In this document: piece after piece, positions 20,168-38,800 of the stretch
How the letters are laid out: each line of letters begins with the position of its first letter
Numbering within the stretch: position 1 is the first letter of the stretch
From: Pseudoalteromonas piratica
GTDB taxonomy: Bacteria > Pseudomonadota > Gammaproteobacteria > Enterobacterales > Alteromonadaceae
Direction: 5' to 3'
DNA: 64,000 nucleotides
NCBI RefSeq assembly: GCF_000788395.1
Contig: NZ_CP009888.1
Span: 186,001-250,000, forward strand
The notes under the pieces: model-generated
Databases searched by the model: none
What the model saw: the letters and a program-made list of their open reading frames with translations, nothing else
Told to the model about the DNA's origin: nothing
Made by a program: the position numbers and the translations under genes

Positions 20168-20180
20168 CGTTACCCATAAA

Positions 20181-20210: not shown

Positions 20211-20217
20211 ACTTTAC

Positions 20218-20700: not shown

Positions 20701-20964
20701 TGTTTATCTCCGTAATATGCTAATGATGCGATTATACCAATATTATTTAGTATGTGATCAGATCTAGCAGTGAATAAATGAATTGCTAACAAGACAAAAT
20801 TTAATTTATGTAATCACTCTACACCGATAAATTTAGCTGCAAGCATGATTAGCTATTTGATTAAATTAGTATTTTAAAGGGCGTATTTAAACTTACAAAT
20901 TTTTCATATTGTCGCGTAATTCTATTTGATATACTCGCCTTTCATATTTTTGAGGATGTTTTGT

Positions 20965-22207: not shown

Positions 22208-23645
22208 CATTGGTATACCCTTCCTCGTGTAAAATCAACGCCTGTAATTGGCTCATCACGCCTTTTTTACAATATAAGTAATAGTCTTCACCTTTAGGTA
22301 AATCACCAAACTGAGTTGCTAATTTATAAAACGGTAGGTGTTTTACCTCAATGCCATCAAGCTCTAATGGATCGTGATCTTCTTCTTCCGGTGAGCGAAT
22401 ATCAATCACAATTGCACCTTCTGGCAATTCAGCTGCCGATTCGGCTTCTTTAACTTCTTCTTTCGTTTCAGCTTCAATCTCTTTAATACACATAATACGT
22501 GCATTATTTACAACTGTATCAAGCACATCAAAATCAAAGTTTTCTTCTTCAGCGATGATCTTATCAAGTTTAGCTTTTACCGTTGGTTTTTTAGAGATTA
22601 CACCACAGAATTCAGGCATGGCTTCTGCCATTTCTGAGGTGCCAATTTTACGCGCAATATCGATAATTTCTTGTTTATCATGTTGAATTAATGGGCGTAA
22701 AATTAAGGTTTCAGTTACACGGTCAATCACATTTAAGTTTGCTAATGTTTGACTCGAAACCTGACCAACACTTTCACCTGTTACTAATGCATCAATGCCA
22801 AGCTTTTGCGCTATTGCACTACCAGCGCGCATCATCATACGCTTAAGCACTACACCCATTTGGCTGTTTTCAATGTTCTCTAAAATTTCCGCAACCACAG
22901 GTTCAAAGTCTACTTTGATAAACTTTACACGGTGCGTCGAGCTAAATTGTTTCCATAAATAATAGCTCGCTTGCTTCACACCAATTTCGTGTGTTGCGCC
23001 ACCTAAATTAAAGAATAAGAAGTGAGTACGCGCGCCTTTACGCATCATTAAATAACTTGCGACGCCTGAGTCAAAACCACCCGACATTAAACTTAACACA
23101 TCTTCTTGAGTAGGAAGCGGGAAGCCGCCCAAACCGAGGTGCGTTTCTTTTACGATGTAAGCAAACTCGTTTTTAACTTCAATTTTTACCGTAACTTCAG
23201 GCTTTTGCAGTTTTACTTGCGCACCCTCAATATTTTGATTCAAGCCGCCGCCAACGTAACGCTCAACGTCGCTCGATGTGAAGTCATGCTTACCTTGACG
23301 CTTACAGCGTACGCAGAAGGTTTTTCCTTTTAAAGAATCCTTATTAAGCGAAAGTGCAACTTGATAAATATCATCTAACGATTCAAATGTGGTTTCTTGT
23401 ACTTCAATGAATTGCACAATACCCGGTACACGTTTAAGCGCATCAATTAAGCCAAGGCGCGTTGCTTCATCTTGGCTTTTACACATCACAACAATGTTGT
23501 CCCAGTTTTGAATTACTTTCGCATCTTCATGAACGCGAATAACCATGTTTTTAATATTCGATGCCAAAAGCTTGGTAAAACGTTTGCGAACCGATTTACT
23601 TTTAATCGATATTTCAGGGTGTAATTTAACGATAAACTTGAACAT
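22185..23645 (-). CDS. thiI: tRNA 4-thiouridine synthase (with rhodanese domain)
   Basis: A 486-residue ThiI with, in order, an N-terminal ferredoxin-like and THUMP region (about 1-165), the PP-loop adenylation motif SGGFDSGVASYLM (about 185-200), and a C-terminal rhodanese domain with catalytic Cys459 in YCKKGVMS. ThiI takes persulfide sulfur from IscS and makes 4-thiouridine at tRNA position 8, a near-UV sensor; it also supplies sulfur for the thiamine thiazole. Presence of the rhodanese domain marks the gammaproteobacterial type. The gene overlaps convergent panE by 23 bases, so there is no terminator between them. Confidence 0.95.
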   Translation of the reverse strand: MFKFIVKLHPEISIKSKSVRKRFTKLLASNIKNMVIRVHEDAKVIQNWDNIVVMCKSQDEATRLGLIDALKRVPGIVQFIEVQETTFESLDDIYQVALSLNKDSLKGKTFCVRCKRQGKHDFTSSDVERYVGGGLNQNIEGAQVKLQKPEVTVKIEVKNEFAYIVKETHLGLGGFPLPTQEDVLSLMSGGFDSGVASYLMMRKGARTHFLFFNLGGATHEIGVKQASYYLWKQFSSTHRVKFIKVDFEPVVAEILENIENSQMGVVLKRMMMRAGSAIAQKLGIDALVTGESVGQVSSQTLANLNVIDRVTETLILRPLIQHDKQEIIDIARKIGTSEMAEAMPEFCGVISKKPTVKAKLDKIIAEEENFDFDVLDTVVNNARIMCIKEIEAETKEEVKEAESAAELPEGAIVIDIRSPEEEDHDPLELDGIEVKHLPFYKLATQFGDLPKGEDYYLYCKKGVMSQLQALILHEEGYTNVKVYRPE

Positions 23646-23957
23646 ACATCATTCTCAAAGCGACAGTGAATTAATCATTATACCAAGACTAGGTAGCTTG
23701 TTAAAAGTGTAGTTTATACATCGTCTGCATATCCATTTTATCCGCAGGTAGGTTCTAAGACATGCTGCAGATAAAAAATCATAAAATAATGATTAAATTT
23801 TGCTGTGCATTTTGGAATATTGAGAGTGGAGTAAATCAAGCAAAGACAGAGATAAATCATTTATCTTACTTACCAAAGGTAAAATTTTAATACTCTGTGA
23901 AACGTAAAAAAGCCGCTTTCTGGCGGCTTTATATTGATAATAGCAATCCCACAAAAA
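23646..23957. other. Intergenic region between thiI and the BLUF gene
   Basis: About 310 AT-rich bases upstream of thiI. Apart from the terminator of the BLUF gene at its right end I see no reading frame, RNA gene or repeat. The thiI promoter should lie here, but I cannot single one out. Confidence 0.6.
23910..23931 (-). terminator. Rho-independent terminator of the BLUF gene
   Basis: On the minus strand AAAGCCGCC / GCGGCTTTTTT forms a GC-rich stem followed by six T residues, 27 bases after the BLUF stop. Confidence 0.85.
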
Positions 23958-24386
23958 TTAAACCGATTTGGGTGTAAAATCCTGAGTAAAGATACGAAAT
24001 AATTTAATCGCTAATGGGATAGAGACTTTACCCGAATCAAACTCATCCATGGTGGTTTTTAATTCACGGTATTTGCTGTCTCTCTCTGTTTCTAAGTTAA
24101 TCATGCCCATTGTCCACTTAGAGAATACACGTTTGCCTACTGGTTCAAAGTACATTAAGTTGCAATCTTTATGACGTTCGTCTCGTGCTATTTTTTGATA
24201 TAGCGAATCAATGGTGCTTTGTTCACCTTCCAATACTTGTAACAACCAGCCACCATTATAAAAAAGGCACCCTGTAATGCCTTGGCTTTCATTAAACTTG
24301 CGAGCAACTTCTAAAATATCTGAAAAATCCTGATTAGAAAGCATGCGTGTTTCGCGACTCTGATAAATTAATTGGTGCAGTGACAT
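23958..24386 (-). CDS. Stand-alone BLUF-domain blue-light sensor
   Basis: A 142-residue short BLUF protein (blue-light sensing using FAD). The flavin-pocket residues are all in place, numbered from the ATG at 24386: Tyr8 in QLIYQSR, Asn32 in RKFNESQGITGCL, Gln50 in LLQVLEGE, then the DERHKD loop and Trp91/Met93 in FSKWTMGM. The Tyr-Gln-Trp/Met set is what permits the light-driven hydrogen-bond switch. The C-terminal 45 residues are a helical cap with no EAL, GGDEF or other output domain, so signalling must be through a partner protein. An ATG four codons upstream is also possible. It is a single-gene unit with its own terminator. Confidence 0.9.
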   Translation of the reverse strand: MSLHQLIYQSRETRMLSNQDFSDILEVARKFNESQGITGCLFYNGGWLLQVLEGEQSTIDSLYQKIARDERHKDCNLMYFEPVGKRVFSKWTMGMINLETERDSKYRELKTTMDEFDSGKVSIPLAIKLFRIFTQDFTPKSV

Positions 24387-24464
24387 AAACAGTTCCATGG
24401 CTTAAAGTTCAACTTTAAAATATATAGACTGTTATCTTAAAAAGGTCACTGTTTAATAACAAAA

Positions 24465-24487
24465 AAAGGCCGCAAAGCGACCTTTCA
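24465..24487 (-). terminator. Terminator of the rnr-rlmB operon
   Basis: On the minus strand AAAGGTCGC TTT GCGGCCTTTTTTT forms a nine-pair stem (one G-T) with a T-run, 20 bases after the rlmB stop. Confidence 0.85.
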
Positions 24488-24507
24488 ATAAATAGGTAAG
24501 ATGATGT

Positions 24508-25245
24508 TTACGCGCGGCGTTGGCGCAATACTTCAAATAAACAAATACCCGTTGCCACCGATACATTTAAGCTTGATACCGTTCCCACCATTGGAATTTT
24601 AACCAACTCATCGCAATGCTCTCGAGTTAAGCGGCGCATACCTGAGCCTTCAGCGCCCATTACAATCGCCATTGGGCCTGTTAGTTTCGCATCAAATACT
24701 TCAACATCTGTTTCACCGGCAGTGCCAACAACCCAAACACCCATTTCTTTAATATCACGGAGTGTACGTGCAAGGTTAGTTACTTGTACAAGCGGTACAG
24801 TTTCAGCCGCACCACAGGCAACTTTACGCGCAGTACCATTAAGTTTGGCTGATTTATCTTTCGGTACGATAATCGCATCGACGCCTGCGGCATCAGCATT
24901 ACGTAAGCACGCACCTAAGTTATGCGGGTCAGTTACGCCATCAAGTACTAATAAAAATGGCGTGTCGCTATTGGCAATGATCTGGTCAAGATCTTTCTCG
25001 TTGTACTTTTTACCCTCTTTTACGCGGGCAATAATCCCTTGGTGCTGTTCACCTTTGGCTTTATCATCGAGTGCTTTACGCTGCATAAATTGAATAGACA
25101 CACCAAATTGGCGCGCCAAATTAATAATTGGATTTAAGCGTTTATCTTCGCGGCCTTTTAGCGCATAAATTTCGATAAAGCGTTCAGGTTCTTTATTTAA
25201 AATTGCTTCCACTGAGTGAAAGCCAAAAATTAATTCGTTACTCAT
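24508..25245 (-). CDS. rlmB: 23S rRNA (guanosine(2251)-2'-O)-methyltransferase
   Basis: A 245-residue SPOUT methyltransferase. An N-terminal L30e-like RNA-binding domain ([20 protein letters not shown]) is joined to the trefoil-knot catalytic domain with motif 1 [20 protein letters not shown], motif 2 [12 protein letters not shown] and motif 3 [19 protein letters not shown]. It methylates the ribose of G2251 in the P-loop of 23S rRNA using S-adenosylmethionine. It follows rnr by four bases, the standard gammaproteobacterial rnr-rlmB arrangement, and the pair ends in a strong terminator. Confidence 0.96.
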
Positions 25246-25249
25246 TTAA

Positions 25250-27685
25250 TTAGCTCTTAGCACGTTTTCTTGCATTTTTACCCGGACGCTTTTTAGCAGC
25301 CGAAGCTTTTGATTTGGTTTTGCTAGCAGACTTTTTGCCTGCTTTGCTTTTCTTGGTCGGTTTACCTGATGATTTCCCCGCGGGTTTTGGCTTGCCCTTA
25401 CCTTTGCCTTTTCCTTTTTCAGGAATAGCCCCTGCGCGCAGTTGGTCGCGCACACTGGTTGCTTCATTAACAGCTTTTTGTGCACGACGACGTGAATAGC
25501 GGTCTTGCCCTGTTTCTTCACCAAGCGTTAAATTTATGCGGCGATCATCAAGGCTAACAGACGCTACTTGTACATCAATGGCATCACCCATACGGAATAC
25601 TTTGCGACTATTTTCACCAATTAAACAATGCTTTTTCGCATCGAAATGATAGTAGTCGTTACCAAGTGAGGTAACGTGCACCATTCCGTCAATGTATAAG
25701 TCATTTAAGCGCACAAATAGGCCAAAGTTCGTTACCGATGAAATCACACCGCTAAAGACTTCACCTACGCGGTCTTGCATAAATTCGCACTTAAGCCAAT
25801 CGGCTACTTCACGGGTCGCGTCGTCAGCGCGGCGTTCGGTCATCGAACACTGCTCACCGAGCTGATCGACCTCATCTTGAATATAGGCATATTCACCCGA
25901 GGTTTTTTGCCCCTGCTCTTTTAAGATTGCCTTAATTGCGCGATGCACAACTAAGTCAGGGTAACGGCGAATTGGCGAGGTAAAGTGCGCATACGCTTTT
26001 AATGCCAAGCCAAAGTGACCAATATTATCTGCCTGATACACCGCTTGCTTCATTGAGCGTAACAACATGGTTTGAATAAGCTCAATTTCAGGGCGCTTTT
26101 CTAATCGGTCAAATAACTCGCCCACTTCTTTTGGCGTAGGCTCTTGCGGCATAGTAACTTCAATACCCAACTCACCTAAAAACTGGCTAAAGTTCATTAG
26201 CTTTTCAGGATCAGGCTCGTCGTGTACGCGGTAAAGCGCTGGCGCTTCATGCTTTTCTAATAACTTGGCGGCGGCAACGTTCGCTAAAATCATGCACTCT
26301 TCAATCAGTTTATGTGCATCGTTACGGCTCAGTGCAACAATTGATTCGATTTTACGCTGCGCGTTAAAAATAAATTTCGGCTCTTTGGTTTCAAATTCAA
26401 TAGCACCGCGCTCTAAACGAGCTGCTTTCAGCGTTTTATACATTAAGTGTAATTCGCGAATATGCGGCACAAGCGCTGCATTTTCTTCACCTAATGCATT
26501 TTCATCGCCACCCAATAACTCACCCACTTTGGTGTAAGTTAAGCGTGCGTGCGAATTCATCACGGCTTGGTAAAAACGATAGCCTGACAATTTACCCGTT
26601 TGTGATACCGTCATTTCGGCCACCATACACAGGCGGTCTACTTTCGGATTTAAACTACATAACCCGTTAGACAGCACTTTTGGCAACATTGGAATAACTT
26701 CTGACGGGAAGTACACTGAATTACCACGTTGAATTGCTTCACGGTCTAATGGGCTGTTTTTGCTAACATAGTGCGATACATCGGCAATCGCGACCCACAA
26801 ACGCCAACCACCTGACTTTTTCGCTTCGCAGAATACTGCATCATCAAAGTCACGGGCGTCTTCACCATCAATCGTCACCAATGGTAAATGACGTAAATCG
26901 ATGCGCCCTTCTTTGTCTTTTTCAAGCACTTCGTCGGTTAGACCAGCAATTTGCTGTTCAAGATCTTTTGGCCATTGATTTGGAATATCGTGATTACGTA
27001 GCGCAACTTCAATCTCCATTCCTGGTGCCATATGTTCACCAAGTACATCAATCACTTTACCAAGTGCGTTCATACGTTTACTTGGGCGCTGAGTGATTTC
27101 GATTTGCACCATTTGATTGTGCTTAGCATCACCTTCAAAACCCGGCAAAATCATAATATCTTGGCTAATACGCGGATCTTCCGCTACCACAACGGCCATG
27201 CCGTGTTCACGGAAAAAACGGCCAATAATCGGTGCTCTATCGCCCTCAAGTACGCGCACAATACGCGCGTCGCATTTGCCATTTTTACCCATGTTAGCAG
27301 GTTTAGCTAAAACACGATCACCATGCAGCACTTGCTCCATTTGATGTTTAGGAATAAACCAATCTTTACCGCCTTCATCCAGCTCTAAAAAGCCAAATCC
27401 TTCGCGATGACCAATAACCTTACCTTTTACTAAACCGACTTTATCTGGAATGCAGTAGCATTTTAGTTTATTAAAAAGTAACTGCCCGTCACGCTCCATT
27501 GCGCGTAAACGGCGTTTTAAAGCGATTTGACGCTCTTCTTCAAACACGTTTAGTTCGCCACATAAATCGGCAAAATTGGCAGGTTTAGTTCGGTTGCTGA
27601 TATGCTCAAGAATAAACTCTCGGCTCGGCACTGGATTGTCGTATTTTTGTTGTTCGCGGTCTAAATAAGGATCTTTTTTCGGCAT
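25250..27685 (-). CDS. rnr: Ribonuclease R
   Basis: An 811-residue 3'-to-5' exoribonuclease able to pass through structured RNA. Domain order is helix-turn-helix-like N-terminus, cold-shock domains (FGFLELDEGGKDWFIPK block), the RNB catalytic domain with DGEDARDFDDAVF (metal-binding aspartates), the HFTSPIRRYPDLVVHR block, an S1 domain (GVISSVTNFGLFVRL) and a Lys/Arg/Gly-rich basic tail of about 70 residues. The tail is repetitive at DNA level and produces spurious reading frames on both strands. Roles include rRNA and mRNA turnover, trans-translation and cold adaptation. It is first in an operon with rlmB. Confidence 0.96.
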   Translation of the reverse strand: MPKKDPYLDREQQKYDNPVPSREFILEHISNRTKPANFADLCGELNVFEEERQIALKRRLRAMERDGQLLFNKLKCYCIPDKVGLVKGKVIGHREGFGFLELDEGGKDWFIPKHQMEQVLHGDRVLAKPANMGKNGKCDARIVRVLEGDRAPIIGRFFREHGMAVVVAEDPRISQDIMILPGFEGDAKHNQMVQIEITQRPSKRMNALGKVIDVLGEHMAPGMEIEVALRNHDIPNQWPKDLEQQIAGLTDEVLEKDKEGRIDLRHLPLVTIDGEDARDFDDAVFCEAKKSGGWRLWVAIADVSHYVSKNSPLDREAIQRGNSVYFPSEVIPMLPKVLSNGLCSLNPKVDRLCMVAEMTVSQTGKLSGYRFYQAVMNSHARLTYTKVGELLGGDENALGEENAALVPHIRELHLMYKTLKAARLERGAIEFETKEPKFIFNAQRKIESIVALSRNDAHKLIEECMILANVAAAKLLEKHEAPALYRVHDEPDPEKLMNFSQFLGELGIEVTMPQEPTPKEVGELFDRLEKRPEIELIQTMLLRSMKQAVYQADNIGHFGLALKAYAHFTSPIRRYPDLVVHRAIKAILKEQGQKTSGEYAYIQDEVDQLGEQCSMTERRADDATREVADWLKCEFMQDRVGEVFSGVISSVTNFGLFVRLNDLYIDGMVHVTSLGNDYYHFDAKKHCLIGENSRKVFRMGDAIDVQVASVSLDDRRINLTLGEETGQDRYSRRRAQKAVNEATSVRDQLRAGAIPEKGKGKGKGKPKPAGKSSGKPTKKSKAGKKSASKTKSKASAAKKRPGKNARKRAKS

Positions 27686-27751
27686 GAATTCGCACTATCT
27701 ATGAAAGTGCTTTTATTTTAAACCATTTAGCCACTTGGTGACAGGTCATTT

Positions 27752-28705
27752 CTATGACAAGTCGCTTAACACGCGCTTTTGTTTGTCAATTTCAACGACT
27801 AAGCCATCAAATGCCAATACTAACTCGCCATTGAAGTGGCTTTTTGCCTCGTTTGCTAGCGGTTCTAACATGCCTTCGCCATGGTAGCGGCTTGAAAAAT
27901 GAAACAGCGCAAGGCGCGGAATATGGTATAACTCGGCAAATTCAGCAATGCGTTTGGCATCACTATGCCCGGTATGCATCCCAACTTTATGTAAATCACT
28001 ATGAGTAAACGTCGCTTCATGCACCAGTAAATCGATATCTTCAACCGCATTGGATAACAATGCTGGCTTTTCGTTATCGCCACAAATAATCACCTTACGC
28101 GGCTGCCAGCTAGGAAAACTATATTCTTCAGCGCGTAACAACTTACCTTGGTATTCAACATCGCCTCCTTTTTGCAGCAAATTATAATGGCTACCCGTTG
28201 CAATACCGTCATTGGCCAACTTATCAAGATGCAATTTACGCGGAATATTTCGCTCCGTTATTTTAAAGGCAACACTCGGTACGCGGTGTTTTAATGGGTG
28301 AATAGACACTTGGCAAAAGCTAAAATCAAGCGCCTGTTCTAGCCCTTCAATCTCAAGGCAAATTAACTCAAAACCAGTTTCCATTTGAGTAAATTTAAGT
28401 GCGCTTAATACAAAATCAATCACCGCTTTCGGCGCCACTAAATGCACTGGCTCTTTTCGCCCCGCCAGAGAAATAGAAGCAATTAACCCCGGCAAGCCAT
28501 AGCAATGATCACCATGTAAATGGGTAATTAAAATCACTGATAGGTGATAGCTTGCGAGTTCACTTTTTAAAATTTGATGCTGCGTGCCCTCACCACAGTC
28601 CACCAGCAACCACGACTTAGTCGAGTCAAAACTCACCGCCGTTGCACTCACATTACGATTAAGTGACGGACATGCTGACGAAGTGCCTAAAAAGTGAATT
28701 TTCAA
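27752..28705 (-). CDS. rnz: Ribonuclease Z
   Basis: A 317-residue metallo-beta-lactamase-fold endonuclease that trims the 3' end of tRNA precursors. The zinc motif THLHGDHCYGLPGL (HxHxDH) is about 65 residues in, preceded by LVDCGEGTQHQ; downstream HEATF and the HTGHSDAKRIAEFA and LFHFSSRYHGE blocks complete the site. The length and the exosite-containing middle match the short-form RNase Z (ElaC). It is transcribed in the same direction as rnr with a 66-base gap, and can have its own promoter. Downstream lies the repeat-rich accessory region. Confidence 0.93.
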   Translation of the reverse strand: MKIHFLGTSSACPSLNRNVSATAVSFDSTKSWLLVDCGEGTQHQILKSELASYHLSVILITHLHGDHCYGLPGLIASISLAGRKEPVHLVAPKAVIDFVLSALKFTQMETGFELICLEIEGLEQALDFSFCQVSIHPLKHRVPSVAFKITERNIPRKLHLDKLANDGIATGSHYNLLQKGGDVEYQGKLLRAEEYSFPSWQPRKVIICGDNEKPALLSNAVEDIDLLVHEATFTHSDLHKVGMHTGHSDAKRIAEFAELYHIPRLALFHFSSRYHGEGMLEPLANEAKSHFNGELVLAFDGLVVEIDKQKRVLSDLS

Positions 28706-28983
28706 ATTATGTGCCTATAGGTGTGGTGGGTACTGGTTAAATTGTAGAGGAGATTGATTAGGGATGGAATTGGTAAAGAATTTGGCTTGGTGTAATTTTA
28801 TTAAGCATTTGTCTTTATTACATATAGTTTCTGCTGCATAAGACAATCCCACCTCCTTGTATTTCATAAAGCCCATCCATGGGCTCCATATTACTTTTCT
28901 TTGCTTCGCCAAAGATAAAGTAACCAAAAGAAAGGCGACCGCACTATCAAACTTAATCCTCAAAACAAATTTGAATCTTATGA
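28706..28983. other. Intergenic region left of the cassette array
   Basis: This stretch after the RNase Z start holds the 28891-28923 hairpin and AT-rich DNA. The frames here (rich in Phe and Lys) read through repeats and are not convincing genes. I see no RNA gene. Together with the 71-bp repeat it looks like a modular interspersed element (repeat unit, short AT spacer, hairpin), but its left end is not defined. Confidence 0.4.
28891..28923. repeat. Imperfect hairpin in the left repeat module
   Basis: TTACTTTTCTTTG / CAAAGATAAAGTAA around a CTTCGC loop. This hairpin motif (CTTTGGCGAAGCAAAG core) recurs between genes in many proteobacteria. It lies about 60 bases outside the left 71-bp repeat. 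Confidence 0.6.
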
Positions 28984-29054
28984 TAAACGCCCTGAATCGG
29001 CATCCATGCCTCAGCATGACTTGCTCAACCGCTTCGCGCCCTGTCTCGCATTAT
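28984..29054 (-). repeat. 71-bp inverted repeat, left copy
   Basis: Its reverse complement matches 31017-31087 with about four mismatches over 71 bases, including the core ATGCTGAGGCATGGATGCC. The two copies face each other around the cassette genes. The reading frames that begin MLRHGCRF in both copies are by-products of the repeat. Confidence 0.85.
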
Positions 29055-29397
29055 CAATTCAAACTTGATTTTCGGGTTTGATAAAAGCGGAAATGAATCT
29101 TAGCAACAGCTTTCTAGGTCGTAATTGTGCTAGGAACTGTCATTGAATAAATTACTCAATGCACATTTCAAACTCTTAGTTGTTAGAAGAAAAAATATGC
29201 CTATTCCATTTCTTAATGATTATTTCCCCCTTAATAATATTAAGGGGCAATTTGCCCGATTTCTGCAACTGATAAAATGTTAGTTTTCAAATAACCATCT
29301 GACTAGTAACAACTAATTATTAGTGTTATAAATTGCTTCAGAATGTAAACAGGCGATATTGCGTTCAAAAAAGAGGCAACTTGCCTCTTAATAAACT
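29055..29397. other. Region between left repeat and first cassette
   Basis: About 340 AT-rich bases without a convincing gene. It holds two neat palindromes: CCCCTTAAT / ATTAAGGGG at 29227-29247, and AAGAGGCAA / TTGCCTCTT at 29370-29389, which has an A-run before it and could be a minus-strand terminator. The stretch 29310-29404 has weakly matching arms and may be a decayed attC, but I could not make a good fold. No integrase reading frame and no recognisable attI are present. Confidence 0.45.
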
Positions 29398-29409
29398 GTT
29401 AGAGGAACT
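29398..29409 (+). other. Cassette 1 left boundary (R' core, GTTAGAGGAACT)
   Basis: The 12 bases GTTAGAGGAACT are the exact reverse complement of AGTTCCTCTAAC at 29937-29948, the R'' end of the attC downstream. In integron cassettes the start of a cassette and the R'' end of its own attC must be complementary, because they join in the circular form. The AGAGGA also serves as the ribosome site of the cassette gene. Confidence 0.75.
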
Positions 29410-29413
29410 AATT

Positions 29414-29938
29414 ATGAAACGGATGTTAACCCTCGCAATTGTATTTTGTTCGCAGTCTCTTTTGGCGAGCAATTGTATAAAATTCAACGATAAAGACTTT
29501 TGCGAAGTCTGGAATAATAAGGATGATGGTGTTCATACAGTTGAACTACTTGCGGAAGGTCAATCATTGGAGTCTTGGTCTACAATGATTACTGTGCGGA
29601 AGTACAAAGGGAAAACAGCACTAAAAGAAGTTCTCCCGGGCTACATAAACAGCGTTAAGCCAATGTTCACTCTGAAGCCAGATATACTTCAGTCCGACAC
29701 CTCAAAAGCAAAGGAAGAAGTATACTTCCGCATGCTTCTGTTAGCTCCTGACAAATCACATTATGAGTACGTGATAAATCGATTTTATCGAGATGATGAT
29801 GAATCGGTTAAATCAATTTTTTACTCTCATCGAATTCCATTTGCTGAGCAGGTTAACTTCAACGAGATAATGGAAAACCGTGATAATTGGCTAGAGCAAC
29901 TTCAGTCACAGAATATTGATGGACATCTTGGTGAGTAG
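29414..29938 (+). CDS. Cassette gene 1: exported protein of unknown function
   Basis: A 174-residue protein. The ATG at 29414 has an ideal ribosome site (GAGGA, eight bases upstream) and opens a signal peptide (MKRMLTLAIVFCSQSLLA, then SN). The mature protein has two early cysteines (NCIKFNDKDFC), which may pair, and a mixed alpha/beta body with no motif that I recognise. The stop codon overlaps the first bases of the attC site. The longer frame starting at 29333 crosses the cassette boundary and is not the gene. No promoter is evident inside the cassette, as is usual for cassette genes. Function unknown; cassette products are often strain-specific. Confidence 0.7.
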   Translation: MKRMLTLAIVFCSQSLLASNCIKFNDKDFCEVWNNKDDGVHTVELLAEGQSLESWSTMITVRKYKGKTALKEVLPGYINSVKPMFTLKPDILQSDTSKAKEEVYFRMLLLAPDKSHYEYVINRFYRDDDESVKSIFYSHRIPFAEQVNFNEIMENRDNWLEQLQSQNIDGHLGE

Positions 29939-30022
29939 TTCCTCTAACAAGTTTGTTAAGTTCGCCCAACGAGTTGGGCTGGGACGCGTAAACTACACGC
30001 GCCCCTTACAAAAGCGTTAGTT
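29937..30022 (+). other. attC recombination site 1
   Basis: An attC-type site between cassettes 1 and 2. It begins with R'' (CCTCTAAC) and ends with R' GCGTTAGTT cut after G30016. The arms CTAACAAGTTTGTTAAG and CTTACAAAAGCGTTAG pair almost fully, and the centre adds two further stems (GCCCAAC / GTTGGGC, and GGGACGCGT / ACGCGCCCC). This gives the long imperfect hairpin that integron integrases act on as single-stranded DNA. Length about 80 bases. R boxes match the consensus in six of seven positions. Confidence 0.8.
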
Positions 30023-30038
30023 GCCTCAAGGATAGTTC

Positions 30039-30368
30039 ATGTTTCAAACTTTGGTAATCTGCCTTTTTATTTTGTCCATCCTGGCTTTTATTAAAAGTGT
30101 AAGTGTTTTCATAGAAACTTGGAAAACTGAGGCTCCTATGCATTGGCGCGAGTGGAACGAGCCAGAATTCATAGATCTTTACAGACAAATGTTCACATAC
30201 TTGTGGCCTGTCATTTTCGGTAAAGCGTGTGAAGCCGCAAATTCTGATTTACTTGTTAAAAAGCGAAATGATATTAGGTTTTCACTAATTATCGTCGTTT
30301 TATTGTTTGTCGCGGGTACTGCTTTTAATGATTTTTCCTTTGAAGTATCACCTCGTTGGGTAAACTAA
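30039..30368 (+). CDS. Cassette gene 2: small membrane protein of unknown function
   Basis: A 109-residue protein with a hydrophobic helix at the N-terminus (about 2-22) and another near the C-terminus (about 84-100), separated by a soluble segment rich in Trp, Glu and Arg (TWKTEAPMHWREWNEPEFID). The ATG follows AAGGA at correct spacing, and the gene starts 23 bases after the cassette boundary. The stop codon is two bases before the next R'' box, so the cassette is fully packed. I recognise no family. Nothing in the cassette looks like a toxin-antitoxin pair or a resistance gene. Confidence 0.65.
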   Translation: MFQTLVICLFILSILAFIKSVSVFIETWKTEAPMHWREWNEPEFIDLYRQMFTYLWPVIFGKACEAANSDLLVKKRNDIRFSLIIVVLLFVAGTAFNDFSFEVSPRWVN

Positions 30369-30370
30369 AC

Positions 30371-30461
30371 GGCAACTAACAAGTTACTCAAAAGGACGCT
30401 AAAAGCTTGGCTTGCGCTCCTTCGTCGCTAATTTTAGCCAAGCATTATTAGCCCGTTATGC
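30371..30461 (+). other. attC recombination site 2
   Basis: R'' GGCAACTAAC (30371-30380) is the exact reverse complement of the left end of the same cassette, GTTAGTTGCC at 30016-30025. The site ends with R' GTTATGC (G30455 at the cut). An internal stem AGCTTGGCT / AGCCAAGC (about 30413-30443) gives the hairpin. The phrase TTAGCCCGTTATG at the right end is typical of environmental attC sites. Length about 90 bases. Confidence 0.8.
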
Positions 30462-30492
30462 GAGGCGTTAAGTATACAGAGGAAGTATCATC

Positions 30493-30903
30493 ATCGAAAA
30501 TTCAAATTCCCAATCTATTAAACACTCAAAGTCTAGTTTCGTTTTAGCTATGGCAAGTTTATCTATGCTAGTTATATTTATTGGCATTTATAAAACAGGC
30601 GCTTCCCTTTATGAAGGCGTTCAAACATTAACTCCTAATGGGGTTGGTGACCCGAAACTTATGTCTGCCCATATCAGTCAATCACTAGTTAACTACGTTG
30701 TTTATTGTTTTATGGCATTGCCTGGTTGGCTGTTTGCAATGGCGGTTTTATTGTTTACTAATTATCGCTCTAAACCTTATTATTACTTTTTAACTTTCAT
30801 CTCTGTAGTTTTAGTTTTAGGTTTTCCTTTTTCCACTTTATTTGGTATTGCTCTTGGTGTTGCTTTATTCCTTAAACGTAAACAATTTCAGAAGAATCAA
30901 TAG
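30493..30903 (+). CDS. Cassette gene 3: small membrane protein, start codon uncertain
   Basis: A 117-residue product if read from the ATG at 30550, or about 136 residues if it starts near the ribosome site. A strong GAGGAAG at 30479-30485 is followed in frame by three ATC codons (30487-30495) and then E-N-S-N-S-Q-S, with no ATG, GTG or TTG at the expected spot. An ATC start, or a point loss of ATG, would explain this. Three hydrophobic helices are present (about 2-20, 48-68 and 78-104 counting from ATG). The segment DPKLMSAHISQSLVNYVVYC is faintly like MotA/ExbB channel proteins; this is only a hint. No attC follows, so the array ends here or its end is lost. Confidence 0.55.
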   Translation: MENSNSQSIKHSKSSFVLAMASLSMLVIFIGIYKTGASLYEGVQTLTPNGVGDPKLMSAHISQSLVNYVVYCFMALPGWLFAMAVLLFTNYRSKPYYYFLTFISVVLVLGFPFSTLFGIALGVALFLKRKQFQKNQ

Positions 30904-31016
30904 TCAATTTTGAGGTCAAGTCATGCATCTTGCACCACACTGCCTAAACCTTTTATACAGCTTCAAGGTTTACACCCTCACCCATTAAATCAAACCTGAA
31001 AACATTATTTAAATGA
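30904..31016. other. Region between cassette 3 and the right repeat
   Basis: About 110 bases with no gene and no attC. The sequence complementary to the left end of cassette 3 (CCTCGCATAAC) is not found here or further right. Confidence 0.5.
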
Positions 31017-31087
31017 ATAATGCGAGACAGGGAGCGAAGCGGTCGAGCAAGCCATGCTGAGGCATGGATGCCGATTCATGGCGTTTA
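31017..31087 (+). repeat. 71-bp inverted repeat, right copy
   Basis: Matches the reverse complement of 28984-29054 with about four differences. The palindromic core GGCATGGATGCC is shared. Both copies are followed outward by about 40 AT-rich bases, an AGTTTGAT phrase and then a different hairpin, so each looks like one end of a modular interspersed repeat. Confidence 0.85.
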
Positions 31088-31145
31088 AGTTCACATTTAA
31101 ATTATGTTTGAAGAATCAGTTTGATTTTTGGGGCGCCGAGGGATT

Positions 31146-31177
31146 CCAAAGGGAGGCCGGCGTTAGCCTCCCTTTGG
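31146..31177. repeat. 12-bp stem hairpin in the right repeat module
   Basis: CCAAAGGGAGGC / GCCTCCCTTTGG, a perfect 12-bp stem with the loop CGGCGTTA. It lies in the same relative place as the hairpin outside the left copy. Confidence 0.75.
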
Positions 31178-31182
31178 CTGCT

Positions 31183-31314
31183 GTCGCCAGCGCGACAAAT
31201 ACACTAACAGATATATACGATTGCATCTGTAGAAAGCATCTTATCAGTTTTAGAGCAAAATGAATGACGCTAGATATAAAGCACGGATGCTGCCGTCGCC
31301 AGCGCGACAAATAC
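31183..31314. repeat. 20-bp direct repeat, two copies
   Basis: GTCGCCAGCGCGACAAATAC occurs at 31183-31202 and again at 31295-31314, 112 bases apart. Each copy contains its own small stem GTCGC / GCGAC. The DNA between holds no gene that I can support. Two copies only, so not an array. Confidence 0.75.
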
Positions 31315-31424
31315 GCTTTCAAATTTGTACAGTAGCAAAGACTAAACGCCACCAATATGAGATTCTGACACAGGGCCAATCCAAATAACAGCTGATAACA
31401 TTCTCTGCAAACAACATCAAATAA

Positions 31425-31964
31425 TCAAAGTTCCCTTTCATAATGCACTGCTGGAATATCCCCTAACGGATCGCTATGCATATACTCTTTCACAAACCTC
31501 ATACCGAGCTTTTCCATTACCGCAATCGAGCCGAGGTTTTCTTTCACTGCGATAGCACTGATATAGGTGTATTCTGGCATTAACGCAATTTGCTCCACTA
31601 AAGCATTAGCTGCTTCGGTTGCATACCCTTTCCCCCATGAGCTTTGCTTAAAACGCCAGCCTAGTTCAAGGTTATGCCATTCGGTATCAGTTTCATCATT
31701 AAAGAAATGCATTGGCCTTACTAAAATCCAACCAATAAACTCACCCGACTCTTTAATGTTAACTTTCCAAAGGCCCCAACCTTTTTCTTTATTGGCATAT
31801 TTAGCCATGCGCGGTAAAAAAATGGTTTTCTTTTCTTCCATGGTAGTTGGTTTACCACCATTAAGGTGCTTCATCACGGCAGGGTCTTGGTCGAGTTGGT
31901 ATAAATCTTCGAGGTCATCTTCGGTGATAAACGCATAATTAAGGCGACTTGAGGTAGGTTGCAT
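31425..31964 (-). CDS. GNAT-family N-acetyltransferase (RimJ/RimL type)
   Basis: A 179-residue acetyltransferase of the RimJ/RimL group. It has the DLEDLYQLDQDPAVMKHLNGGKP N-terminal part, the LGWRFKQSSWGKGYATEAA acetyl-CoA-binding motif A (Q/RxxGxG/A form) and the ENLGSIAVMEKLGMRFVKEY motif B. Family members acetylate protein N-termini or small amines; the target of this one cannot be told. The ATG at 31964 follows CAGGAG seven bases away. It stands alone, just right of the repeat module. Confidence 0.85.
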   Translation of the reverse strand: MQPTSSRLNYAFITEDDLEDLYQLDQDPAVMKHLNGGKPTTMEEKKTIFLPRMAKYANKEKGWGLWKVNIKESGEFIGWILVRPMHFFNDETDTEWHNLELGWRFKQSSWGKGYATEAANALVEQIALMPEYTYISAIAVKENLGSIAVMEKLGMRFVKEYMHSDPLGDIPAVHYEREL

Positions 31965-32104
31965 TCGAGTACTCCTGTGATGAGATAAAACCGATAAATA
32001 ATGGTTTTATTTTTCTTATTTTTTTCTGATTTGTGATTCTAACACTACTTTTTAAAAGGGCTTTAGTATTAACTGTTACCAAATTTTAATGACAGGAAAT
32101 ACCA

Positions 32105-32530
32105 ATGAATTTAATTAAAGGACTATGCCTAACGCTCGCGCTTTTTGTATCAAATGCCATTGCTCACCAATATGAAGGTGATTGGCAATTTATTAAAGGC
32201 GAATACAAAACGCCTTCAGGTGAAATATTGAAAGCAGATAACGCTACGCTTGTCGCAATCAAAACCGTAAAGGGCGATAAATTTGCCTTAAACAATATGC
32301 AGCAAGGCGAATTCTTAGGCTATTTAGCAGGTAAATTCACCCTTGATGGTGATAAGTACAGTGAACATATCGAACAAGGCACATCAAATGAGCACCAAGG
32401 TAAAGTGTTCACCTTCAAAGGCTGGCTTGAAACAAAACAAGAACACGGGCAAGAGGTGATTTACTGGCACCACAAAGGCATGGTGAATGGCACAGAAGAA
32501 ACCGAAGTATGGCGAAAGCTTGCTCGCTAA
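32105..32530 (+). CDS. Exported protein of unknown function, 141 residues
   Basis: A signal peptide (MNLIKGLCLTLALFVSNAIA) is followed by a mature beta-rich domain of 120 residues that begins HQYEGDWQFIKGEYKTPSG and ends GTEETEVWRKLAR. The GDW near the start and VWRKL at the end recall lipocalin-like small-molecule-binding barrels, and FKGWLETKQEHGQEVIYWHH fits a beta hairpin. This is an impression, not an assignment. AGGA precedes the ATG at good spacing. A clear terminator follows, so it is a single-gene unit. Confidence 0.65.
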   Translation: MNLIKGLCLTLALFVSNAIAHQYEGDWQFIKGEYKTPSGEILKADNATLVAIKTVKGDKFALNNMQQGEFLGYLAGKFTLDGDKYSEHIEQGTSNEHQGKVFTFKGWLETKQEHGQEVIYWHHKGMVNGTEETEVWRKLAR

Positions 32531-32571
32531 TTTTAAAATCAGTTAGATATTTGGGTCCCAACCCATTATGA

Positions 32572-32604
32572 ATAAAAGGAAATCGCCATGATTTCCTTTT
32601 TCTT
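32572..32604 (+). terminator. Rho-independent terminator
   Basis: AAAGGAAATC GCCAT GATTTCCTTTTTC: a ten-pair stem followed by a T-run, 45 bases after the exported-protein gene. Confidence 0.85.
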
Positions 32605-32725
32605 TCAGTGACAAAACACACGTTATTATGCAAAATCAATAATGAGTGCAAGGGTTGCCCGAGTTGGTATTGTGCCAATCCTGAAGCTCTTATAGACATC
32701 CGTCAGCAAAATAAGAGTAAACAAT

Positions 32726-34369
32726 ATGACAATTATGCAAAAAGCCTATTGGTTAATACTTACCTTAGGCAACCTAATTACATTCTTTCTGTGGCAATAC
32801 CACGCAGATGATCTTACTTTCATTCTTTTTGTCTTTTCACTGATTTACAGTGTAATAGGCTTTTATGATGTCTTTTTCTCAAAGCGTAACTTAAATCGTT
32901 TATACCCTGTTGTTGCTTACATTCGTTACTTTTTGGAATCCTTTCGCGTTGAAATTCAGCAATATTTTATTGCTAACGACACAGAAGAAAAGCCTTTTAA
33001 TCGCGAGCAGCGTTCACTGGTTTACCAACGCTCAAAATCAGTAAGAGATACCATTGCATTTGGTACACAAAGAGACTTACTCGAAGAAAATTATTTAAGC
33101 TTGTGGCACTCATTGGCACCGTGTGACGTAAAAGAAGAACATAAGCGTACCTTGATCGGCGGACCAGACTGCAAGCAACCTTACTCAGCATCACGTTTAA
33201 ATATTTCGGCCATGAGCTTTGGCTCGCTCAGCAGTAATGCAATTGAAGCGCTTAACCTTGGCGCAAAAAAAGGGGGCTTTAGCCACAATACAGGCGAAGG
33301 CGGCTTAAGCCCTTATCATTTAAAACACGGTGGGGATATTGTATGGCAAATTGGTTCTGGCTTATTTGCATGCCGCACACCAAATGGCGACTTTAATGCT
33401 GATATATTTCGCGAAAAGAGCGCCCTACCACAAATTAAAATGATTGAAATTAAGCTTTCACAAGGCGCTAAGCCCGGCCATGGTGGTGTTCTACCAAAAG
33501 CAAAAATCACTGAAGAAATTGCCCGTATTCGTTTAATTGACCAAGATAAAGACTGTATTTCTCCTGCCGCGCACCCTAAATGTAAAACCCCAAAAGAACT
33601 ACTTAATTTTGTTGCTGAGCTTCGTGAGCTAAGCCAAGGAAAACCGGTTGGTTTTAAGCTTTGCTTAGGAAACCCTGCCGAGTTTTTGTCAATTTGCAAA
33701 GCCATGTTAGAAATGGATATTTACCCTGATTTTATCACTATTGATGGTGCCGAAGGTGGTACAGGTGCTGCCCCTGTTGAGTTTTCAAACCGCTTAGGTA
33801 TGACGTGCTTAGAGAGTATTTATTTAATTCACAATGCATTAATTGGACTTGGCATTCGCGATAAAATATCACTTATTGCTGCAGGTAAAACGGCATCAGC
33901 ATTTGATTTACTCGCTAAACTAGCACTCGGTGCTGACAGTGTTAACGCAGCACGCACCATGATGATGGCCTTAGGTTGTATTCAATCGCGAAGTTGTAAC
34001 ACCAATGAATGCCCTACGGGCATTGCTACGCAGGATCCAGCTCGCGCCAAAGCCATTGATATTGAAAGCAAGAGTGAACGAGTTAAAAACTTTCATAAAA
34101 ACACCTTGCACGCTTTTTACGAATTACTTGGTAGTATGGGACTAGATGACCCAGATAAACTACTGCCACAAATGGTGAAACGTCGCTCACCCTATGGATT
34201 ATTAATGTCAGTAGGTAGCCTTATTAAGCCTCTGCACGAAGGTGAAATTTTAGAAAATAAACCACTTGGCAATTGGAGCATCTGGTGGCAGCAGGCATCA
34301 AGTGAACATTTTTATGTTTACGATGACAGTATTTTACAACCACAGGAACTTAGCCGTGACAACCTCTAG
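32726..34369 (+). CDS. Membrane-anchored FMN-binding glutamate-synthase-like protein
   Basis: A 547-residue protein with two N-terminal membrane helices (about 7-25 and 30-50) and the FMN/iron-sulfur domain of glutamate synthase. The latter shows ISAMSFGSLSSNAIEALNLGA, HNTGEGGLSPYHLKHGGD, KPGHGGVLPKAKI and DGAEGGTGAAPVEFSN. A C-x5-C-x4-C cluster (GCIQSRSCNTNECPTG) is the 3Fe-4S site of the family. There is no glutamine amidotransferase or NADPH-binding domain, so it cannot act as full GOGAT alone. Family members of this short kind are of unknown reaction. The last 14 bases overlap the start of the aldehyde dehydrogenase gene, which suggests that they share a pathway in amino-acid or GABA metabolism. 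Confidence 0.85.
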   Translation: MTIMQKAYWLILTLGNLITFFLWQYHADDLTFILFVFSLIYSVIGFYDVFFSKRNLNRLYPVVAYIRYFLESFRVEIQQYFIANDTEEKPFNREQRSLVYQRSKSVRDTIAFGTQRDLLEENYLSLWHSLAPCDVKEEHKRTLIGGPDCKQPYSASRLNISAMSFGSLSSNAIEALNLGAKKGGFSHNTGEGGLSPYHLKHGGDIVWQIGSGLFACRTPNGDFNADIFREKSALPQIKMIEIKLSQGAKPGHGGVLPKAKITEEIARIRLIDQDKDCISPAAHPKCKTPKELLNFVAELRELSQGKPVGFKLCLGNPAEFLSICKAMLEMDIYPDFITIDGAEGGTGAAPVEFSNRLGMTCLESIYLIHNALIGLGIRDKISLIAAGKTASAFDLLAKLALGADSVNAARTMMMALGCIQSRSCNTNECPTGIATQDPARAKAIDIESKSERVKNFHKNTLHAFYELLGSMGLDDPDKLLPQMVKRRSPYGLLMSVGSLIKPLHEGEILENKPLGNWSIWWQQASSEHFYVYDDSILQPQELSRDNL

Positions 34370-35813
34370 CCTAAAACAATTAACGGATAACTCATTAGTT
34401 AAAAATAGTAGCTTTATCAATGGAAATTGGCTCAAGAGCAGTGCTACATTTGATGTGGTAAACCCGTTTAATAACAGTGTGCTGACACAAGTAGCTGATA
34501 TTAACCCTAGCGATGTTGAAAAAGCAGTTATTGCAGCTAAAAATGTTCAATTAGCATGGCAAAACACCACGGCAAATGAGCGTAGCGAATATTTAAAAAA
34601 ATGGGCGAATTTACTCACGGAAAATTTAGAAGACTTGGCGTTATTGCTCACTTTGGAGCAAGGTAAACCGCTAGCTGAAGCGCGCGGTGAAATCAAATAC
34701 GGCATTAGCTATATTGAATGGTTTAGTGAAGAAGCTAAGCGTGTTTATGGTGATACCATGCCTGCACTCAGTAACTCGCAGCAAATTATTGTCACAAAGC
34801 AACCTGTTGGCGTAGTTGCAGCCATTACCCCATGGAATTTCCCTAATGCCATGATCACCCGTAAAGCCGCCGCAGCACTTGCAGCAGGCTGCTGTTTTAT
34901 TGTTAAACCATCTGAGCTTACGCCATTAAGCGCACTTGCTATGGCTGAATTAAGCCTACAAGCGGGCATACCCAACGGTGTTTTTAATGTGGTTGTAGGT
35001 ACTAATGCTAAGGCCATCGGCGAAGTATTAACAACACACCCAGATATTGCCAAATTTAGTTTTACCGGCTCTACAGCAGTGGGGAAGTTACTCACCAAGC
35101 AGGCGGCGTCAACGGTAAAACGTGTGTCGATGGAGCTTGGTGGAAACGCGCCCTTTATTGTGTTTGACGATGCTGATTTAGAGGCAGCAGCCACAGGGTT
35201 AATTGCCGCAAAATTTAGAAATGCTGGGCAAACCTGTGTATGTGCTAATCGAATTTATCTTGCCGAATCCATTAAACAGCCATTTTTAGAGATCTTCACA
35301 GAAAAATTAAAACAGTTAAAACAAGGTAATGGCTTAGAGGATGTGCAACTTGGCCCACTTATTAATAAAGCTGCAATCGATAAAGTATCAACGTTAGTAA
35401 ATAACGCCATTAGCCAAGGTGCAACTTTACACTATCTAGGTGAAGCAAGTGCAACAGGTTACCCTGCAACCATTTTAACCAACTGCACTAATTCTATGGA
35501 GATTGCACAAAACGAGATTTTCGGCCCTGTTGCAACCATCTTTACTTTCACAAATGAGCAAGAAGTTATTAAACAAGCCAACGATACTGAGTATGGCCTC
35601 GCCGCTTATTTTTATAGCCAAAACATTAATCGCATTATGCACACAGCCAATCAGTTAAAGTTTGGCATGATTGGTATTAATGAAGGCATTATTTCAAATG
35701 CCGCCGCCCCATTTGGTGGTGTAAAACAGTCCGGTTATGGCCGCGAGGGATCACACTACGGACTAGATGATTATTTAGAAGTTAAGTACTTGTGTTTAGG
35801 GAATTTAGTCTAG
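34356..35813 (+). CDS. gabD: NAD(P)-dependent succinate-semialdehyde dehydrogenase
   Basis: A 485-residue aldehyde dehydrogenase of the GabD group. Motifs in order: AAITPWNFPNAMITRKAAAALAAGC, KFSFTGSTAVGKLL, MELGGNAPFIVFDDADL with the catalytic Glu, and RNAGQTCVCANRIY with the nucleophile Cys; the C-terminus has APFGGVKQSGYGREGSHYGLDDYLEVKYLCLG. The GTG at 34356 is used because AGGAA lies seven bases upstream; it overlaps the end of the glutamate-synthase-like gene. Longer frames upstream run through that gene. GabD oxidises succinate semialdehyde to succinate, the last step of GABA degradation. No GABA aminotransferase is adjacent. Confidence 0.9.
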   Translation: MTTSSLKQLTDNSLVKNSSFINGNWLKSSATFDVVNPFNNSVLTQVADINPSDVEKAVIAAKNVQLAWQNTTANERSEYLKKWANLLTENLEDLALLLTLEQGKPLAEARGEIKYGISYIEWFSEEAKRVYGDTMPALSNSQQIIVTKQPVGVVAAITPWNFPNAMITRKAAAALAAGCCFIVKPSELTPLSALAMAELSLQAGIPNGVFNVVVGTNAKAIGEVLTTHPDIAKFSFTGSTAVGKLLTKQAASTVKRVSMELGGNAPFIVFDDADLEAAATGLIAAKFRNAGQTCVCANRIYLAESIKQPFLEIFTEKLKQLKQGNGLEDVQLGPLINKAAIDKVSTLVNNAISQGATLHYLGEASATGYPATILTNCTNSMEIAQNEIFGPVATIFTFTNEQEVIKQANDTEYGLAAYFYSQNINRIMHTANQLKFGMIGINEGIISNAAAPFGGVKQSGYGREGSHYGLDDYLEVKYLCLGNLV

Positions 35814-35884
35814 AAATTAGAAACAATTAACGATAGAATTTTACAAAACTATTACAAAAAATTATAAATAACTAACGGATTATT

Positions 35885-38800
35885 ATGTCAATTTTAGCGA
35901 AAAAGGGACTCTTCGCGGTCTCTCTGTGCGCCCTTTCTGTCTCTAGTGCGCTTTATGCGTCTGCAACTCAATATATAACTGTCGGAAACGATACACAAAA
36001 AATAACTAAAGAACCTGGAATCGTTAGCAGCGTTTTTCATGTCACTGACAAAGATGGCAAAGTAATATCGCAAAAAGTATACAGACGTTTTGAAAAAGAA
36101 CGTTTCATCGTAGAACTTCACAATGCACCTTTAATACAAGCAAAGCACCAAATAAAGAACAATGTTACTAAGCAGTTTTTAAATTCAAAAACCTCATCGG
36201 CAACACAAGAATCAATTATTCGTTCTCAATTACAGCAAGCCCAAGCAAGAATAGAAACCGACCAGCAAGCAACGATTCAGCAAATACAAAGCATAAATAA
36301 AAACATTAAGTTACTTAGCCGCTTTTCAAGAACAAGCAATGCTATTGTGATTGAAGCTGACAAAACGTCGTTAAATGCCATCAAACAACTACCCAATGTT
36401 AAACGCGTTTCACCCGATACAATTAAGTCGATTGATTTAAGTGAAAGTGTATCGCTTGTAAATGCCCCTTTGATTTGGGCAATGACTGATGCAAATAGTG
36501 AAACCATTACAGGTAAAGGGATATCCGTTGCTATTCTCGACACGGGGATTGACTACAATCATGTCGACCTAGGCGGCTGTTTAGGCGAAAACTGCCGTAT
36601 TACCCATGGCTATGATTTTGTAAATAATGATAACGACCCTATGGATGGTCACGGTCATGGTACTCATGTTGCAGGTATTGTTGGTGCAAATGGAACATTA
36701 AAAGGTGTAGCACCTGATGTGACTTTTCATGCATATAAAGTTCTCAGTGACTATGGTTCAGGCGCAACCAGCGGCATTATTGCTGCCCTAGAGCGCTCTG
36801 TTGACCCTGATGGTGATATCAATACAGATGACGCTGTAGATATTGTGAATATGAGCTTAGGCGGTGGTGGTAGTGCAACCGACCCTCTAAGCATCGCAAC
36901 AAACAATACTGTGGATGCAGGTGTGATTGTTGTCGTTGCCGCAGGTAATGACGGCTATTACGGGGCCATTAACGCAAGCTCTCCCGCCGCAGCTGAAAAA
37001 GCCATTACCGTTGCATCATCAACGAAACAAGACGCCATATCTGATTTCTCATCCAAAGCGACTCAAACCGAAATTTTTAATAAACCTGAAATTACAGCGC
37101 CGGGAAGTAGCATCAACTCAACTTTGCCAAATAGTGAATACGGATATAACAGCGGCACAAGTATGGCTGCACCACATGTTGCAGGCGCAATTGCATTATT
37201 AAAACAAAACGACCCAAGCTTATCATCAAAGAAAGCAACACAATTACTCGCAGCTGGCGCGATAAATATTGGTTCAGACCCTCTTGCACAAGGCCCTGGG
37301 CGAATGGATATTGAAAAAAGTATCAAAGCCACGACAACAGCCAACGATACTGCAATCAACTTTGGTAAACTCGACACCGCATCAAATAGCTGGAGTAGCA
37401 CTCGCTCAATTACCATTAATAACCATTCAGGTGATGAGAAAAATTATCAAATAACAGCTGGTGATGGGTTGCCAACTGGTGCGACTATCAGCTTTTCAGA
37501 AACAAGCTTCACTTTACCGGCTAATTCATCGCACACTTTAAATTTTGACCTTACGGTGCCAGATACAACCGCAATACCATTTGCTACTAGCAGTGCAGGT
37601 ATTCACTTTTCCAATATCACTATTTCATCAGATACCGATGAACTGCGTATTCCAACTTACTTTGAACACAGCGTAAAACTGACTCTTAAGACTAATTCGC
37701 CAAGCCAAGTAAGTGCCACGATCATCGATGAACTTGGAAGAATGACGAGCTATTATCTTGATGCTTTTAGTCCCGTTGAACTTAACTCCCCAGGCAGCAG
37801 CATTTTTATTAGCGCCACTTATTTCGATTTAGATACGAGTGACATTACTGTTGCCCCTGATGTAGCAAAATTAAAATATGGTGCTTCCTCACACCAGCTT
37901 GAACTAACCGAAACCACAGAGTTTTTATTAGATGTTAATCAATTAACTAATATTACAGGGATTAATAGCGCTACTAACCACAGTGGCGATAATATATTGT
38001 CAAAAACACATAACTTTTATGGTTCAACGGATTTTTGGACAGGAACTCGTGGTTTTGGTTGGGGTTATTTTCCAAATGAATTCACACATATTTATTTAGC
38101 CTTGGGTGAAATTGCTAATACTCATGAATTTAAAATGTCATCACACTTTAAATTTTCCGAGAGCGCATCAGAAGAAGGCTATTATTTACATAGCCGAAAA
38201 ATTATTGATGGTATCTCAGTTGCCAGTGATATCGATATAGATCTCTCTTCCCTAAGCGTTATCAATATACTGCCTCCTAACCCAGAAAAAGTAGATCAGT
38301 TTAGTATAAGTGACAGAAACACAAATTCGCTTACACAGCAGGTAGACTCGAAAATTAATAAAATAAATATCTATCAGCCGCAGCAAAATGATTTTATCGA
38401 CTTTAAGCAATTCGTTACATACAAATATGATCCAATTCAAGGCAGGCACTCAAACTCAATATATTCAAATTTGTTTGATTTAAATGAATCAGGAGAGTTG
38501 CGCATATACAGTGATAGACCTGTGCAAACCTCAGATAGCAATGAATTAAACTTCTCTGAGACCAGTAGGCGTTATTTTAACGGCACTATTAATGTTTCTG
38601 ATTCGAAGCTAGTGCATTCACCCAGCCGCTGGGACAGAGTATTATTTTCTGACCATCAAGGAAATACTAATAACCCTGAAGCCAATTACAGTTTTTATTG
38701 TGAGAATGAAGAAGGTAAACGTGAATTATTAAGTAGCGGCAGTATCTCTTACTATCACGCCACTGCTGAACGTCCAGAAGCTAATTGCGAAAAGCTACTG

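Follow-up and report, generated by a model that had tools for sequence, protein, structure and literature searches.

The cassette array described here is very probably part of a non-autonomous integron, made up of an attI (29205-29397), two whole cassettes and one truncated cassette, lacking an integrase gene and lying between the two arms of a dispersed inverted repeat; it appears to be one of a set of intI-less attI-plus-cassette arrays dispersed in Pseudoalteromonas genomes. The window, which is the whole 64-kb stretch of DNA that was analysed, corresponds to C1:186001-250000 of the source genome (G000), whose two contigs measure 3.20 and 1.62 Mb. The features of the locus, numbered by window position, are:

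28850..29092, + strand, left arm of the dispersed inverted repeat, with a 149-nt core (28934-29082) that is 80% complementary to the right arm
29205..29397, + strand, attI of type A by homology, without integrase; cassettes join at G^TTA (29398)
29371..29389, no strand assigned, proximal palindrome of the attI, AAGAGGCAA/CTTGCCTCTT, read from the sequence
29398..30015, + strand, cassette 1
29414..29938, + strand, cassette 1 ORF, 174 aa, hypothetical, with a signal-peptide-like start (by eye)
29939..30023, + strand, attC1
30016..30466, + strand, cassette 2
30039..30368, + strand, cassette 2 ORF, 109 aa, hypothetical, membrane-protein-like (by eye)
30371..30474, + strand, attC2, apparently chimeric, with a native left half and a right half like another attC
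30467..30977, + strand, cassette 3, truncated, with an ORF at 30550-30903 (117 aa) and no attC match before the right arm
30978..31204, - strand, right arm of the inverted repeat, from an inverted-repeat search; arms of this kind were seen at other loci

Elsewhere, the window contains a Cobalamin riboswitch (16545-16724, minus strand, 64.8 bits) and a 1424-aa ORF (35885-40159) that is subtilase-like by eye and carries a long D-rich repeat array near its C-terminus.

The attC sites were located with a covariance model (R1) built for this analysis from 75 attCs of other arrays, cut from 92 for redundancy; arrays of the same genome were included and the window's attCs were excluded, though close relatives of attC2 were in the training set. 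Across the 64-kb window, its best matches are at 30371-30474(-) (E=2.9e-18, 83.8 bits) and 29939-30023(-) (E=7.9e-6, 33.5 bits), and the only two remaining matches up to an E of 10 have E values of 0.16 and 3.7. The earlier note, which had read two attC-type sites from the letters and proposed covariance models as a check, is borne out at both sites. It had also reported that each complete cassette begins with the reverse complement of the R'' end of its own attC, which is the case: GTTAGAGGAACT (29398) pairs with AGTTCCTCTAAC as an exact inverted repeat over 14 of 14 positions, extending the 12 of 12 first counted, and GTTAGTTGCC (30016) pairs with GGCAACTAAC (30371) over 10 of 10. Its further claim, that both attCs fold as long imperfect hairpins, holds for attC1, whose bottom strand folds with z=-3.4 (1 of 200 shuffles equally good), and fails for attC2, whose minimum-energy fold has z=-0.2 (75 of 200 shuffles equally good).

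Moreover, a pair-and-chain test combined an exact 10-nt complementarity rule with a search for chains of consecutive cassettes. The exact rule yields three pairs on the + strand of the window and four on the - strand, three of which are the same pairs backwards, together with one chain of two consecutive cassettes that is visible from both strands; in second-order Markov windows, of which 40 were made, the mean was 2.4 pairs (both strands) and no chain occurred. A looser rule with one mismatch was unspecific (for the window, 40 pairs on the + strand and 48 on the - strand; 570 in real arrays versus 209 in their shuffles) and was replaced by exact pairs and the chain test.

The halves of attC2 have separate relatives. 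In particular, the 50 nt on the left agree at 94% with the attC of cassette 2 in G039 (L054), and a 44-nt part of the right half agrees at 95% with another attC from the same genome (L018). The site therefore looks like a chimera, which is the likely reason that it fails to fold as a minimum-energy hairpin, and a chimeric attC2 points to a past deletion through recombination between two attCs.

Cassettes 1 and 2 have the properties of gene cassettes, with a 5′ end complementary to R'' and boundaries that are mobile as a unit; cassette 3 has no attC, since R1 gave no match of its own there and the sequence runs into the inverted repeat. Cassette mobility itself is well supported by sequence comparison, because a cassette 91% identical to cassette 2 occurs in a genome of another family of the order (G039), where homology stops at both GCGTTA cores, and because the product of cassette 1 has a 97% identical protein in Motilimonas eburnea; the products of both are thus found in other genera or families. 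Domain searches with the three products gave no Pfam or PADLOC family and no NCBIfam match over the cut-off, and homologues carry the precomputed label PF27161.

Directly left of cassette 1, where the earlier note had seen no attI, the segment 29205-29397 is an attI by homology. This assignment is made because a 73% identical homologue in a close relative (G002) separates the first cassette from intI, whose start codon is about 46 bp away, because copies at other loci end at the same base, and because its anatomy is shared, by eye, with most of the intI-adjacent attIs compared. By eye, their common plan runs from a LexA-like box and a first palindrome over about 100 bp to a second palindrome, followed by an AT-rich stretch and GTTA, and many intI-adjacent attIs of the genus have near their core a palindrome of different sequence; neither the plan nor the palindrome is clear in types I and J (L016, L142). 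When the leader (29083-29401) was searched in 108 Pseudoalteromonas genomes, it matched in nine, three of them over about 40 nt only, and many matches stop exactly at cassette 1's GTTA. Across ten type-A copies, the 56 nt upstream of the junction are 88-100% identical (mean 95%), compared with 16-48% (mean 32%) downstream. Nine aligned copies have their highest identity to the consensus, a mean of 98-99%, across the last 50 nt, and unrelated sequence begins straight after GTTA, which follows 11 of 12 aligned copies (the exception, L083, has GTAA). In the window's attI, 12 positions depart from the consensus, four of them within -40..-31. The same attI type heads further intI-less arrays in the source genome and its relatives.

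CALINs (or SALINs) are clusters of attC lacking an integrase, as defined in IntegronFinder. The locus formally falls under this definition, because its cassettes and attCs are genuine and no integrase is nearby, yet the attI at the head of the array changes its class: by homology and position an attI is present, an intI gene beside it is absent, and the locus is thus, as judged from sequence, an intI-less integron and not a plain CALIN. The CALIN reading of the earlier note accordingly keeps its cassettes, its attCs and its missing integrase, and gives way where an attI heads the array, where further intI-less arrays begin with this attI type and where the genome has an intI elsewhere. Its observation that no cassette promoter is visible agrees with a scan for Pc by sigma-70 consensus only, which gave no match on the + strand of 29083-29450.

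Individual attIs elsewhere have features of their own. Two (L089 and L048) are shortened and miss the stretch between the two palindromes, as if it had been recombined out between them. Several others (L267, L117, L102) have very similar sequence (GTTGAAC-A-AGCCGCTACGCGG) right after the attI core, with a distant tyrosine-recombinase match (28%) in L267, and this may be an attI-targeting element. In a Saprospiraceae MAG (L168, contig CAKZLT010000253.1), a stretch of about 160 bp is a type-A attI core, possibly through chimeric assembly and possibly through a cross-phylum insertion. Further, one type-A attI array (L082 / L173) has inovirus-like genes beside it, a Zot-like one among them (by eye), and this stretch also appears as a viral contig in IMG/VR (UViG_2681813194).

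A tblastn search with a set of IntI proteins found no intI-like sequence at 20001-40000 of the window, in agreement with the absence noted earlier. In the rest of the genome, where a look for intI and similar attCs had been suggested, there are other arrays with attCs and a single intI that passes the family cut-off (397.8 bits, C1:2434488-2435426), 2.2 Mb from the locus, with six weaker matches below the cut-off. The attI of this resident intI belongs to a different type, type I, and the encoded protein shares 42% identity with the IntI of G002. Between the leader and the resident intI locus, blastn at E<=100 gave noise only. Genus-wide, an intI match at E<=1e-60 is found in 87 of 108 genomes.

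The arms around the locus recur. Counting itself, the left arm matches at 14 places in the source genome, and such arms bound different cargo at other loci. For example, in the orthologous slot of G002 (L049) the same arms surround a type-B attI (85%), genes of 180 and 239 aa and two attCs; related strains carrying the same three genes and spacers unchanged had been named in the earlier note as part of what would refute its reading, and this related strain has different genes here. In the mnmG-mnmE slot (gene names by eye), the arms surround a type-A attI array in G089 and a 192-aa gene in G000. A third slot (L046) is cargo-free in G000, and the interval is longer in G002 and G089, shorter in G050 and G112, and spread over two contigs in G016. 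The arms were considered as simple transposon ends and rejected as such, since the L046 slot showed neither a TSD-bearing empty site nor a clean junction in five relatives; for the window unit too no TSD was found, and it has inverted arms in place of the TSD-making ends described below. At another locus (L043, G000:C1:783000-787000), arms surround an AbiV-like gene (ORF 1511-2158; PADLOC E=3e-10) together with an incomplete type-A attI.

Other solo attIs sit in elements of a second kind, with a left end (LE) TGTAGTAGCTC... and a right end (RE) ...GACTTATTCA. From 21 such elements, one without a detectable right end, 20 were measured: 7-bp direct repeats at the junctions are perfect (7/7) in nine and match at 6/7 in two, compared with 0.04% (7/7) and 0.26% (6/7 or better) among random pairs. 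A MITE or transposase-less transposon is marked by terminal inverted repeats and a target duplication; the window unit showed inverted arms and no TSD, and the LE/RE elements showed the repeats just given. The 20 elements mostly have other cargo, and six are known to carry attCs or attI (L080, L088, L089, L268, L308, L311), with perfect repeats in three. The clearest example, L268, consists of a left end, a type-K attI, four attCs and a right end with GCTTACT on both sides and no intI; none of its four ORFs of 90 aa or more is transposase-like (by eye). Left-end matches occur in 65 of the 108 genus genomes and right-end matches in 45, some of the latter to the inner 39 nt only.

At 8 of 47 intI loci examined (seven distinct genes among the eight; some of the 47 repeat one gene; types B and C; partly by eye), the same ends lie 35-157 bp past the 3′ end of the intI match, and therefore some complete integrons lie inside these ends; near the source genome's own intI (L016) neither end was found. 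LE and RE are general cargo ends and are not integron-specific, because only 3 of 17 extra elements that were fetched carry attCs (L308, L311, L315) and the other 14 carry other genes. By eye, the cargo of L302-L314 is varied, with metal efflux and a MerR regulator in L302 and GNATs in L312 (source genome), and L306 (G018:C109:12400-18000) has a pair of OLD-like (738 aa) and UvrD-like (599 aa) genes that is Gabija-like in look (names by eye). Three long elements contain ORFs of rve-domain transposases (L303:869-1909, L304:6957-8117, L305:1748-2176), which may be a candidate helper transposase or unrelated insertion sequences.

The extent of solo attIs was surveyed by joining 11 attI types into one query against 20 two-contig genomes, all 20 of which gave matches. 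Core-complete matches of at least 100 bp were counted, and 'beside intI' denotes a distance within 600 bp; the count was taken over from 104 rows (nearly all at least 100 bp), five of which were dropped, and it is a lower bound, as at least one qualifying row (G083:C2:725331-725457) is uncounted. There are at least 99 core-complete attIs in the 20 genomes, at least 13 beside intI and at least 86 not. The source genome alone has at least ten (types A, A, B, B, C, C, I, I, I and I), one of them beside intI. Two genomes, G059 and G117, have no intI match at E<=1e-60, yet attIs are present, one of those in G117 beside a 47-aa intI fragment.

From the at least 86 solo attIs, 38 were fetched with flanks (6-kb stretch), picked and not randomly sampled. 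Downstream on the right strand, 33 of the 38 have at least one attC and five have none; 85 of the 88 attC matches at these loci are so placed. By tblastn, the flanks contain no intI-like match in 34 cases and a match in four, two of which are true fragments by identity (L283, L288); the remaining two, in L267 and L281, have identities of 28-34%, on which they were assigned to other tyrosine recombinases. Transposon-like ends or arms (LE, RE or arm in the 6-kb stretch, several only as the inner part of an end) accompany 15 of the 38, and the 23 with none include all fetched types D, E, F, H and J.

Together, these results may be read as a distributed integron, in which one IntI would serve a large number of scattered attI platforms that lack intI and belong to several lineages, some of them on transposase-less mobile elements ('satellite integrons'), with cassettes stored at up to about ten places versus one array; we hold this reading tentatively, at somewhat short of even chances. 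The mechanism favoured for the locus and its relatives is more modest and is held as the most likely one: an IntI encoded elsewhere would act in trans, inserting cassettes at any attI that it recognises; some units would descend from mobile integrons by loss of intI and be moved by a transposase supplied in trans; and homologous recombination between arms would swap whole arrays at a locus. What speaks against it is that the resident IntI has another attI type than the window, that 23 of the 38 fetched solo attIs have no LE, RE or arm, and that five have no attC downstream. The window copy itself seems to be ageing, with low present activity, as suggested by its altered attI, its chimeric attC2 and its truncated cassette 3.

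A locus that formerly had its own intI and lost it in place, leaving attI and array, would look similar, and intI fragments at four or more of the at least 86 solo sites (L230, L246, L283, L288), together with the transposon ends that also bound some intI-bearing integrons, are what such loss would leave. This origin is nonetheless improbable for the window, as an intI-like match is absent both there and at 34 of 38 further loci, G002 carries another attI type in the orthologous slot, and several type-A attIs at different loci share an intI-free upstream module to about -256..-273 and therefore probably descend from an already intI-less copy. Less probable again is a plain CALIN, close to the earlier reading, whose cassettes an IntI put off target at an attG-like genomic site with no attI involved: no intI is nearby, and IntI-mediated attG insertion is published, as stated in PMC12444791, but such an insertion has neither attI nor attC at its insertion point, where the window has an attI by homology, and an attG target would not account for the conserved module of about 193 bp or more that reaches right to the junction at many loci and is homologous to an intI-adjacent attI. 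That 29205-29397 is a mobile promoter or terminator segment preceding cassettes by chance is the least credible of all, for although it contains palindromes and its attI function rests on homology, the near-constant GTTA after its copies, the identity peak in its last 50 nt and the place of its G002 homologue between intI and a first cassette all argue against it.

The origins usually given for CALINs, according to PMC8618304, are off-target insertions, lost integrases and rearrangements; the distributed integron, if true, would be a fourth beside these three. Several CALINs here have their own attI, and current tools search attI only for class 1. If the system is active, one integrase could feed several sites and integron platforms could move without intI; the genus would then also offer a natural panel of attI types on which attI-IntI specificity is testable.

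A MITE-flanked class 1 integron was reportedly described by Gillings in 2009, and Loot in 2024 is said to have reported attG sites as targets of insertion by IntI. The literature already has CALINs, attG insertion, delta-attI cassettes and MITE-flanked class 1 integrons; for genus-wide dispersed intI-less attI platforms, no report was found in titles and abstract openings of the open-licence PMC literature, among the matches listed. The locus resembles CALINs in its two attCs with intI out of reach, and differs from them in that its array is headed by a conserved attI. With sedentary chromosomal integrons it shares an attI, attC cassettes and a similar attC family, but here there is no intI, the array is short and there are several copies per genome of several attI types. 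Delta-attI gene cassettes likewise have attI sequence away from its usual place; those are, according to PMC12901181, attI-derived sites within cassettes of mobile integrons, whereas here a full attI heads an intI-less array. Finally, integron mobilization units (IMU) or TIME-COMP elements and the MITE-flanked class 1 integron also have integron material between transposase-less inverted repeats. The IMU and TIME-COMP elements are, according to PMC13367494, Tn3-derived and placed around few resistance genes, whereas the units here involve native chromosomal attIs of several lineages, with a 7-bp TSD for the LE/RE elements, and extend genus-wide.
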